From NCBI GenBank assembly GCA_021784575.1, contig JAJYHX010000002.1, forward strand, positions 124,001-188,000: DNA of 64,000 nt, written 5' to 3'. Shown here piece after piece: positions 31,889 through 55,401 of this stretch (the stretch's first letter is position 1; each line of letters opens with the position of its first letter). The DNA is from Nitrospirota bacterium. GTDB taxonomy: Bacteria; Nitrospirota; JACRHJ01. Under the pieces are notes generated by a model. The model did not search any database. It was given only the letters and a program-made list of their open reading frames with translations, and was not told the origin of the DNA. The position numbers and the translations under genes were made by a program.

Positions 31889-32035
31889 TACCCCTCTCCC
31901 GGTGCCCGCCACTCAGCCCTCTCCCACCGTCGGGAGCCGGTTCCCTCCCCCCAGCAGCGGGGGAGGGCAAAAGTTTACCCCCTCTCCCTTTCATGGGAGA
32001 GGGTGGCCGAAGGCCGGGAGAGGGTTCGCCGCTCA
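31889..32035. repeat. Cluster of CCCTCTCCC-type palindromic repeats
   Basis: Several inverted pairs, for example CCCTCTCCC with GGGAGAGGG and CCCTCCCCCC with GGGGGAGGG, occur in tandem. The same words recur inside kdsA (35934-36018), around the DUF559 gene (54903-55011 and 55353-55394), and in part inside the glycosylase gene. Confidence 0.8.
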
Positions 32036-32066
32036 TTCTGAGCGATGCGAATAATCCACGGTTGTC

Positions 32067-32107
32067 ATAACGCCCCCTCGTTCCCCCTCTTATCTTAAGA
32101 GGGGGAT
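32067..32107. repeat. TAACGCCCCC hairpin repeat, copy 1
   Basis: ATAACGCCCCC, a short spacer, then the palindrome TCCCCCTCTTATCTTAAGAG continuing GGGGGA. Other copies are at 36561-36602, 40062-40102 and 51797-51837. This copy is followed directly by a GTCATTCCCG-type element with GGCTTTATGCA (to about 32172). Confidence 0.85.
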
Positions 32108-32207
32108 GAATGCAGCCTGTCATTCCCGCCCAGGCTTTATGCACACCGGGGCAGGCTCCGCGAAGAATCCACCTTTCGTATGACATCTCAGCGCCCCCTG
32201 CTCATCG

Positions 32208-35565: not shown

Positions 35566-36492
35566 TCAGGACACTTTTATCGCTTGCACTATTTTCATTA
35601 AAGAAGCCATCCCGGCGATGTCCACCATGTTCGGGCCGTCGCAAAGGGCCTCGTCGGGGCAGGGATGGACTTCCATGAATATGCCGTCGATTCCGACAGC
35701 CGCCGCCGCGCGCGCAAGGGGCGCGACAAACCGCCGCTCGCCCGCGCTCTTGTCACCTCCGCCGCCGGGAAGCTGGACGCTGTGCGTGGCGTCGAACACC
35801 ACCGGATAGCCCATATCGCGCATCACGACAAGCGAGCGGAAATCCACGACGAGGTTGTTGTATCCGAACGACGCGCCGCGCTCCGTCAGGATAATATCAT
35901 CGTAAACCCCTCGCCTATAATGCCTCTCTTCCTTGTTACCCTCTCCCCTCGCGGGAGAGGGGGGACCGGCTCCAGCCGGTGGGTGAGGGTTGGGAGAGGG
36001 GCAGTGGGTGAGGGCTTCGCCTGCCGCTCTTATCTTGTTTATTACATTCTTCATCTCCCAGGGGGACATGAACTGACCCTTCTTCACGTTCACGGGCCTG
36101 CCTGTCCTCGCCGCAGCCTGGAGAATGTCCGTCTGGCGGCAGAGGAACGCGGGTATCTGCAGCGCGTCGAGGACTTCCGCCGCAGGAGATGCCTGCTCCG
36201 GGAGATGTATGTCCGAGATTACAGGAACCTTGAACGTCTCCTTCACCTTTGCGAGGAGTTTAAGGCCCTCCTTCAAACCGGGGCCGCGATACGACGACGA
36301 AGAACTTCGGTTCGCCTTGTCGAACGAGGACTTGAACACAAGCGGCGCGCGCAAATCTTCAACCGCCCTGACTATCTGTTCCGCCGCGTCCATGAGTTTC
36401 TTTTCGGACTCGATGACGCACGGCCCGGCAATCAGGACGAGCGGGTTATTGCCGCCGATTTTGATGGAACCTATTTTAATTTCTCGAATCAT
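35566..36492 (-). CDS. kdsA: Kdo-8-phosphate synthase with in-frame repeat insertion
   Basis: Condenses phosphoenolpyruvate with arabinose-5-phosphate. Core motifs are present: LIAGPCVIES, FDKANR, RGPGLKEGL, GQFMSPWEM, ILTERGASFGYNNLVVD, and DATHSVQLPG. I placed the start at ATG 36492, because the 33 codons upstream come from an intergenic repeat. Residues 159-198 are not part of the family. They replace the usual AGN-(D/E)-x-I turn just before LTERG and are encoded by a CCCTCTCCC-type palindromic repeat. The 308 residues are therefore about 38 longer than usual. Kdo is normally essential, so the protein is probably functional despite the insertion. Confidence 0.92.
   Translation of the reverse strand: MIREIKIGSIKIGGNNPLVLIAGPCVIESEKKLMDAAEQIVRAVEDLRAPLVFKSSFDKANRSSSSSYRGPGLKEGLKLLAKVKETFKVPVISDIHLPEQASPAAEVLDALQIPAFLCRQTDILQAAARTGRPVNVKKGQFMSPWEMKNVINKIRAAGEALTHCPSPNPHPPAGAGPPSPARGEGNKEERHYRRGVYDDIILTERGASFGYNNLVVDFRSLVVMRDMGYPVVFDATHSVQLPGGGGDKSAGERRFVAPLARAAAAVGIDGIFMEVHPCPDEALCDGPNMVDIAGMASLMKIVQAIKVS
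35899..36018. repeat. In-frame palindromic repeat insertion in kdsA
   Basis: Contains CCCTCTCCCCTCGCGGGAGA then GGGG, ACCGGCTCCAGCCGGT and CCCTCACCC/GGGTGAGGG-type words, all inverted repeats. Read in the kdsA frame it gives PSPNPHPPAGAGPPSPARGE, typical of this repeat family, with no stop codon. Confidence 0.88.
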
Positions 36493-36520
36493 AAAATAAG
36501 CAGATTCTTCCGCAGAGCCT

Positions 36521-36642
36521 GCCCCGGTATGTATAAATCCGGGGCTCAGAATGACAACCTTAATCCCCCTCTTAAGATAAGAGGGGGACAAAGGGGGCGT
36601 TATGAAAATTCCCGGGTTCCCGCTTTCGCGGGAATGACAGGC
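36521..36642. repeat. Compound intergenic repeat between pyrG and kdsA
   Basis: Three parts can be seen: a GTCATTCTGAGCCCCGG element with GGGGCAGGCTCTGC (36521-36554, read on the minus strand); a copy of the TAACGCCCCC hairpin repeat (36561-36602); and a CCCGCTTTCGCGGGAATGAC hairpin (36619-36638). It forms the whole leader of kdsA and would otherwise extend the kdsA frame artificially. Confidence 0.85.
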
Positions 36643-53788: not shown

Positions 53789-54899
53789 CACCGCCTTCAA
53801 ACAAGCTGTTTAATGCCGCTTCCAGAGGCCCGGCATCGTCGATTTTCAGGCCCGCTTTCAGCGCGTAAGTTTCCGGATTTTCCGGCAAAAGTCCTTCTAA
53901 TTTCACGGCGTCTTTTTCCGTGGTCAAGAGTATTTCCGCGCCGGATTTTCTTGCTTCTTCAAGGAGATATGCCACGTCTCCTGATGTGTATGAGTGATGG
54001 TCCACATACTGTTTCGACTTCGTGATTTTAACATTAACTCCATGTAAAATCAACGAAAAAGACCCCGGATTGGCGATTCCGCAGAACGCGAAAACCCCTC
54101 TTCCGGTAAGCGTTTCCAGAGGTCTTTCTTCGTGTGTTTTAATGTTGTAAATACTTATTGGGAAATATTTTGCATTAAGCACTGAACCTATTGTTAATGC
54201 ATATGATTTTATTTCTTCAAGCGCCTCTGAAGGCACGTTCCCTGCCCCGGTAAAAACTATCAAATCCGCGCCGGCGGCCCCTTTTTTCGGCCCGCGCAGA
54301 TAGCCCATCGGAATGGTGTGTCCGTTCCCGAACGGGTGCGCCGCATCCATCAGGAGGATGTTCAGGTCGCGGTGCAGCCGCAGGTGCTGGAAGCCGTCGT
54401 CGAGGATTACGGCCTCCGGATGGAAGCGCTCCCAGGCGAGCATACCGGCCCGATACCTGTCGCTCCCCATCACGACCGGCACACCCGGCGCCAGCAGGCT
54501 GCGGGCGATTAATACCGGTTCATCTCCCGCCTCGGACGCCGGAAGGACGTTCCCGCGCCCGTCCGAAGACGGTCGACCGTCCGAGACCACGCACACGCGG
54601 CCCTCGGACGCCCCCTTGTAGCCGCGCGTGAGCACCGCCGTTTTGACGCCCCGCTCCGTCAGCATCGTTGCAATCTCTATCACCATCGGCGTCTTGCCCG
54701 TGCCGCCCGCGGTGATGTTGCCGACGCTGATGACCTTGCACGGCAGACGCTTCGGCTTGACAAGCCCGCTCGTATACGCCCACGCATTCAGCCCCGCGCC
54801 CATGCCGTAAAGCGCGCTCGCGGGATATAGAAGATACATCCACGCAGGCAGAGGCCGTTCGCCCTTGAGGGCGGAGAGGAGATTGGGAGAGAGGTTCAT
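53781..54899 (-). CDS. lpxK: Tetraacyldisaccharide 4'-kinase
   Basis: Phosphorylates the 4' position of the lipid A disaccharide. The 372 residues have an N-terminal membrane helix, the P-loop GNITAGGTGKTPM near residues 59-71, LTRGYKG, DEPVLIA and LDDGFQHLRLHRDL. The ATG directly follows the stop of the DUF559 gene (TAAATG). Confidence 0.95.
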   Translation of the reverse strand: MNLSPNLLSALKGERPLPAWMYLLYPASALYGMGAGLNAWAYTSGLVKPKRLPCKVISVGNITAGGTGKTPMVIEIATMLTERGVKTAVLTRGYKGASEGRVCVVSDGRPSSDGRGNVLPASEAGDEPVLIARSLLAPGVPVVMGSDRYRAGMLAWERFHPEAVILDDGFQHLRLHRDLNILLMDAAHPFGNGHTIPMGYLRGPKKGAAGADLIVFTGAGNVPSEALEEIKSYALTIGSVLNAKYFPISIYNIKTHEERPLETLTGRGVFAFCGIANPGSFSLILHGVNVKITKSKQYVDHHSYTSGDVAYLLEEARKSGAEILLTTEKDAVKLEGLLPENPETYALKAGLKIDDAGPLEAALNSLFEGGDE

Positions 54900-55343
54900 T
54901 TAGCCCTCTCCCCTGGCTTGCCGCTCTTCCACTGCGGGGAGAGGGGTGGAAGGCAATGTTTTTGATGTTACCCCTCTCCCTTCGATGGGAGAGGGGATGG
55001 GGAGAGGGTGATCCAAATTTCTTTTTATATCCTCTAAAACCGCCTCTAATTCATTAAATAAATCATTATTCCAATACCTGATGACTCGGAACCCGTTCTC
55101 TTTCAGCCATTCGTCTCTCTCGTGGTCTCTTTCTTTTTGAAGCGCATGTTGCCCACCGTCAAGCTCAACGATAAGTTTTTTACCAAAACACACAAAATCA
55201 GCAATGAATTTTCCTATCGGAGCCTGCCGTTTAAATTTATAGCCTGCAAATCTTTTTGCTCGCAAATGTCCCCAAAGCAGATTTTCAGCATCCGTTTGTT
55301 CCTTTCGCAGTTGTTTGGCTATTGTGGCGATTATCTTTTCCAA
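54900..55343 (-). CDS. DUF559 endonuclease-like protein with repeat-derived C-terminus
   Basis: A 147-residue protein. Residues 5-112 match the DUF559 family, a restriction-endonuclease-like fold related to Vsr: RAKRFAGYKFKRQAPIGKF, IADFVCFGKKLIVELDGGQH (candidate Asp and Glu catalytic residues) and WLKENGFRVIRYWNNDLF. The last 34 residues (LPIPSPIEGRG and on to ARGEG) are encoded by the CCCTCTCCC repeat at 54903-55011. The start is TTG 55343. The upstream gap holds another copy of the repeat. It interrupts the kdtA-lpxK pair and looks like an inserted module. Function is unknown. Confidence 0.82.
   Translation of the reverse strand: MEKIIATIAKQLRKEQTDAENLLWGHLRAKRFAGYKFKRQAPIGKFIADFVCFGKKLIVELDGGQHALQKERDHERDEWLKENGFRVIRYWNNDLFNELEAVLEDIKRNLDHPLPIPSPIEGRGVTSKTLPSTPLPAVEERQARGEG
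54903..55011. repeat. CCCTCTCCC palindromic repeats at the DUF559 3' end
   Basis: Two hairpins, each with CCCTCTCCC and GGGAGAGGG-type arms (around 54904-54947 and 54970-55009). They are translated as the C-terminus of the DUF559 protein, and its stop codon lies at the repeat edge. Confidence 0.85.
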
Positions 55344-55352
55344 AACAGATGA

Positions 55353-55394
55353 ACCCTCTCCCCTGGCCCCTCTCCCACGACGGGGCGAGGGGTA
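55353..55394. repeat. CCCTCTCCC palindromic repeat upstream of DUF559
   Basis: CCCTCTCCCC, CCCCTCTCCC and GGGGCGAGGGG arms fill most of the gap between the DUF559 start and the kdtA stop. Together with 54903-55011 it brackets the DUF559 gene. Confidence 0.85.
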
Positions 55395-55401
55395 AAAGTC
55401 T

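Follow-up and report, generated by a model that had tools for sequence, protein, structure and literature searches.

Two nested, dispersed palindromes inserted in frame in the kdsA gene of a Nitrospirota bacterium

Small palindromic repeats located in frame within protein-coding genes are known from several bacterial genera. The palindromic elements of Rickettsia (RPEs; Ogata et al. 2000, as described in PMC2229807 and PMC10969869) and the protein-coding palindromes of Wolbachia occur in frame in housekeeping genes, and an RPE-bearing guanylate kinase of Rickettsia is active (PMC2229807), providing a precedent for a functional enzyme with such an insert. Intragenic REPs with GTAG/CGTC tags have also been reported in the ORFs of conserved genes in several genera (BMC Genomics 2013; PMC3733652). 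REPs furthermore serve as landing sites of IS elements, which in one instance insert on the symmetry axis (Tobes and Pareja 2006; PMC1525189). An intrastrand triplex motif, TMECO, has been described in 262 proteobacterial genomes and is confined to intergenic DNA in E. coli K-12 (Holder et al. 2015; PMC4666352).

The window, here meaning the complete 64,000-nt stretch of Nitrospirota DNA that was analysed (genome G000), harbors a kdsA gene (35566..36492, minus strand) with an open frame of 308 codons, encoding a 308 amino acid 3-deoxy-8-phosphooctulonate synthase. The product scores above the cut-offs of two KdsA equivalog models, NF003543 (391 bits; cut-off: 242) and TIGR01362 (363 bits; cut-off: 314), and retains the invariant residues of an alignment of 34 KdsA proteins, placing it in the KDO8P synthase family. 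A second, intact kdsA, which the preliminary description had considered as a possible reason for this copy to be dispensable, was not found in a search of the G000 genome, the sole other match being a DAHP-synthase-type paralogue. Across the 225 codons flanking the insert, dN/dS values are 0.06-0.09 between G000 and its congeners and 0.04 between G001 and G004, both of which carry an insert; these values are averages since the species split and not solely since the insertion. The gene outside the insert is thus under purifying selection. Two more dispersed repeat families flank the kdsA region in inverted orientation (32062-32162 and 36511-36608), with arms that are 90% and 86% complementary, and the repeat at 36511-36608 abuts the kdsA start.

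Relative to the empty allele, the gene contains an in-frame insert of 114 nt, or 38 codons (EALTHCPSPNPHPPAGAGPPSPARGEGNKEERHYRRGV; 35905..36018, minus strand), between the NVINKIRAAG helix residues and YDDIILTERG, and the residues it encodes include CPSPNPHPPAGAGPPSPAR. The preliminary description of a Pro/Gly/Arg-rich addition of some 40 residues is borne out by comparison with relatives of fixed length, while the range it had given, 35899-36018, includes two canonical codons (Tyr-Asp of YDD) in addition to the insert itself. The in-frame palindromic repeat recognised there is likewise present, but it consists of two nested dispersed palindromes rather than one. The short, first element is split into a left part (GAAGCCCTCACCCACTGCCCCTCTCCC; 35992..36018, minus strand), an intact 42-nt copy of the element occupying the same site in G001 and G004, and a right part delimited by comparison with the same two genomes (GGCGAGGGGTT; 35905..35915, minus strand). 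Between them, in the hairpin loop of the first, lies the long, second element of 76 nt (AACCCTCACCCACCGGC...GGCATTATA; 35916..35991, minus strand). Compared with dinucleotide shuffles, folding is more favourable for the insert strand (z: -2.2) and for the long element (z: -2.9), and the centroid fold of the long element comprises two adjacent hairpins.

Three states of the locus are found in congeneric genomes, namely empty (+0), short (+14 aa) and nested (+38 aa), the last of these in one assembly. The GQF...FGY segment spans 35 residues in 77 of the 79 named KdsA loci in which it could be measured; both exceptions, with 49 residues, belong to the Nitrospirae MAG DBS1-3.bin157. The site is empty in G003 of the same genus, where it reads AAGAGGCCGGT TCAGGC GACATAATC, in G005 of the same family, and in the other members of the phylum examined. 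Fourteen additional codons (42 bases; GAAGCCCTCACCCCCTGCCCCTCTCCC-xxx-GGGCGAGGGGTT) are present in G001 and in both kdsA contigs of G004, one of which differs by a single base in the insert. In G000 the ends are as in G001 and G004, and between them AACCCTCACCCACCGGC...CATTATA, 76 nt in length, replaces 4 nt, a net gain of 72 bases, such that both length steps are multiples of three. Close relatives are therefore either empty or carry just the shorter first element, and an unrelated sequence of the same length, which the preliminary description had named as counter-evidence, was found in none of the relatives compared. The phylogeny groups G000, G001 and G004 apart from G003 with 63% support, and this species tree fits an acquisition of the short element once the G003 lineage had branched off. 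The two kdsA contigs of G004 differ from one another (C28:109-603 and C111:691-1536), both with the short insert, and probably represent two strains in one bin.

The assignment of the inserted DNA to a dispersed inverted-repeat family, proposed in the preliminary description, was corroborated. BLAST comparison of the 116-nt segment against its own genome returned matches with e-values of 6.8e-14 (85% identity over 66 nt) and 4.4e-13, besides approximately 40 weaker partial matches. A covariance model of the short element identified 60 copies in G000, 20-52 in each congener and, at a stricter threshold, 0-21 farther out in the phylum. G005, of the same family, yielded at least 142 copies, several times the count in any congener, which suggests an expansion there. 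To avoid circularity, a second covariance model was built without any kdsA copies; it recovers the kdsA insert of G001 and G004 (e-values: 1.3e-13 to 1.1e-15) and has no match inside the empty kdsA alleles. Elsewhere in the window, short-element copies are located at 55348..55399 on the plus strand (55.6 bits; e-value: 2.3e-13) and at 54964..55014 on the minus strand (37.3 bits; e-value: 2e-8), and a diverged copy of the family at 31972..32030 on the minus strand (24.9 bits). In the region 54898-55399, oppositely oriented short-element copies bracket a stretch with a small ORF. The long element is also dispersed, with near-full-length copies sharing 82-87% identity in G001 and G004 (G001:C43, 87% over 74 nt; G004:C154, 85% over 72 nt) and shorter copies in G002, G003 and elsewhere in G000.

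On the opposite strand, the short element reads CCCCTCGCCC-TGC-GGGAGAGGGG-CAG-GGGGTGAGGG, and as such shares with TMECO/PIT the order of a C-rich arm, a loop of 3-6 nt, a G-rich arm, a 3-nt loop and a second G-rich arm. Its stems are one base longer than in the published TMECO pattern (CCCTCNCCC N3-6 GGGNGAGGG N3 GGGNGAGGG, with a mismatch allowed). The 10-nt-stem form of this pattern is matched with 0 mismatches in kdsA of G001 and of G004 contig C28 and in 8 copies of the window's own genome, while the strict 9-nt pattern requires 2 mismatches in the short kdsA copies; the kdsA copy of G000 is interrupted. With up to 2 mismatches, 31 matches were found in 40 stretches of G000 that had been selected because they carry copies, compared with 0.0 in Markov-shuffled sequence. 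The short element is, on this pattern evidence, a close variant of TMECO and a putative triplex former, which unlike the motif of E. coli K-12 is located inside genes.

At least 13 further conserved proteins of G000 carry such elements, and these vary between sister species. Approximately 47 copies in G000 were examined for sense-frame ORFs and 13 host proteins were compared with relatives; the comparison comprised sense-strand ORFs of conserved families, and N-terminal cases, such as a TetR-like ORF, were left uncounted because the true start may lie downstream. The element in GlyS (GlyRS beta) is present in G000 and G004 and absent in G001, G003 and G005. Clear presence and absence was also observed for RsmD, QueE, a cupin, a UbiE-type methyltransferase, a TMEM260-like protein with two elements (+44 aa) and one conserved unnamed protein, while element-derived or lengthened linkers occur in MetG (MetRS), PDH E2, MutL, an AddB-like protein, an acyl-CoA ligase and an endonuclease V-DNA glycosylase fusion. 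Across the host genes, the elements lie in either orientation and are read in several frames, and no particular encoded peptide is therefore being spread. A special stop-free design of the element was considered and set aside, the effect being no more than modest: for five of the six frames, 78-94% of copies are free of stops, compared with 73% for random 36-mers.

Several of these loci show features of their own. In RsmD (L181:1947-2672; G000:C2), two different repeat families (RGACPGMYKTGAPP and TFPPSPSMGEGGERVN) are located in frame right after the DPPY motif, a site with another insert in G004 and none in G001, G002 and G003. QueE (L164:4279-5109; G000:C1) apparently carries a long-inside-short composite near the C terminus, where G002 has a different repeat insert and G001 and G004 have none. 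A repeat-element linker joins endonuclease V in frame to a HhH-GPD DNA glycosylase (L178:1799-3238 in G000:C10; also L203, L211, L204 and L200), and the fusion is found in G000, G001, G002, G004 and the family member G005, with an element content that differs in each.

The hallmark of RPEs, a dispersed palindrome that also lies in frame in conserved protein genes, is observed here, and as with RPEs the elements are both intergenic and within conserved housekeeping genes, whose products seem to tolerate them. They differ from RPEs in occurring in a different phylum (the nearest named genomes being the Nitrospirae MAGs DBS1-3.bin157 and WY2.bin87), in length (42 and 76 nt, against 105-150 nt), in being read on both strands and in several frames, where a conserved peptide is ascribed to each RPE, and in the nesting of one element in another within the same gene. 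The resemblance to RPEs in an essential Kdo enzyme of another lineage, as previously drawn, holds as an analogy: the element behaves like an RPE but, set apart by the published descriptions rather than by RPE sequences, appears to be a triplex-motif relative, and in-frame palindromes outside Rickettsia have already been published (PMC3733652, PMC2229807).

With intragenic REPs (PMC3733652), the elements share their small palindromic form, their location in ORFs of conserved genes, a sometimes doubled or grouped arrangement and the addition of extra residues (20-82 in that report). Unlike these, the short-element consensus (AGCCCTCACCCCCTGCCCCTCTCCC...GGGCGAGGGGTTAAAG) has no GTAG/CGTC-type tetranucleotide tag at the stem base, and no associated tyrosine transposase accompanies it in G000; kdsA is furthermore not among the hosts named in the text consulted. 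A search for Y1 (RAYT/IS200-type) transposases returned no PF01797 match in the G000 genome, which is 96.7% complete. RAYT/IS200 was rejected as the mobiliser, given that none is found in G000 and that the transposase stretches of G001, G003 and G005 are without an element copy. A MITE-type TSD is not recognisable either (empty AGGCCGGT/TCAGGCGAC versus filled GGT/GAAGCC...GGTT/TACGATGAT), as the flanking codons have diverged. The apparent insertion into a hairpin loop resembles the landing of IS elements in REPs (PMC1525189), in which an existing palindrome is also entered near its symmetry axis; the incomer here would, however, be a 76-nt non-coding palindrome and the target a coding frame.

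The AlphaFold model of KdsA with the insert has a mean pLDDT of 85 and an intact barrel, and among PDB entries it is closest to solved structures of KdsA (TM up to 0.93, by target length). Insert residues 163-194 have pLDDT values below 50, and the segment joins helix 144-159 to strand 200-204; it is thus probably a floppy or disordered loop of about 38 residues. In TIM barrels, alpha-to-beta loops lie on the face away from the active site. The placement of the insert right before the LTERG active-site region in the preliminary description is accordingly correct in sequence, but as a loop from helix 144-159 to strand 200-204 it would be oriented away from the active site, the fold placing it opposite the catalytic face. 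The single gene copy, the low dN/dS and the confidently predicted barrel are in favour of KdsA activity with the insert in place.

We consider it probable (approximately 0.83) that kdsA received a TMECO-like insertion in frame and then a nested second palindrome, and that these are tolerated as part of a genome-wide process. A short, non-autonomous palindrome would have entered the helix-strand loop in the ancestor of three species of one uncultured Nitrospirae genus, after which, in the G000 lineage, a second palindrome would have entered the hairpin loop of the first, with the frame preserved again. The 38-codon stretch may then be translated as a disordered Pro/Gly/Arg-rich loop, nearly neutral and tolerated while the rest of the enzyme stays constrained, and kdsA would be one case of a repeat insertion process that has reached at least 13 other conserved proteins, with either orientation and several frames represented. 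Movement in trans, by an enzyme encoded elsewhere, is our default assumption. The opposite order of events, in which the ancestor acquired a composite of both elements in a single insertion and the G001/G004 lineage then lost exactly the inner 72 nt, is unlikely. As read from the sequence, the long-inside-short arrangement also seems to be present in QueE of G000 and at G002:C8, and a composite could therefore be a mobile unit. The two elements are, however, found separately far more often than together, and a nested gain is more parsimonious than an exact deletion that leaves the short palindrome whole again. Recruitment of the insert for a function, as a binding loop, an oligomer contact or a means of mRNA or DNA regulation via triplex or hairpin, is less probable still. 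The short insert is an intact palindrome in G001 and both G004 contigs, which may reflect conservation or merely a recent insertion; against this, the sister lineage G003 lives without the insert, its length and sequence changed again in G000, the AlphaFold model gives it no structure, and the encoded peptide varies between target genes, since frames and orientations differ.

Removal of the stretch before it matters, through excision from the mRNA or ribosome skipping that yields a mature enzyme of normal length, would agree with the strong structure of the insert, a property of skipped translational elements. An Rfam search for ribozymes, introns and known RNAs gave only sub-threshold chance matches, with no self-splicing or other RNA family among them, and the preservation of the frame in both steps and in all other cases would be needless if the stretch were skipped or spliced, making such removal very improbable. 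We regard an assembly or binning artefact, with element sequence placed in kdsA by a repeat-mediated chimera, as the least probable explanation. The data are of MAG quality, repeats are classic points of misassembly and the nested allele was seen once; the boundaries of the short element are nevertheless identical on four contigs of three genomes, G000 included, the frame is intact on both sides, the locus lies within a 331-kb contig, and similar in-frame insertions occur in many genes. Insertion of the TMECO-like element followed by nesting of the second palindrome remains our preferred account.

Descriptions of the triplex-motif class inside genes, of nested coding palindromes with three allele states in sister species, and of palindrome insertions in KdsA were not found in the published, non-subscription literature searched. 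As a speculative and rather doubtful extension, triplex-class repeats and the second palindrome family might move without a dedicated Y1 transposase, preferring each other's hairpin loops and ratcheting disordered loops and linkers into core enzymes; if true, this would constitute a transposase-independent, structure-driven route to protein insertions. More immediately, another phylum shows the process of palindrome insertion in steps, with sister species that have an empty, a single or a nested allele for the same essential enzyme. Together with some dozen parallel cases, this allele series makes it possible to test directly how working enzymes acquire residues from selfish repeats, and the triplex motif class, reported as strictly intergenic in E. 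coli, can occupy genes.
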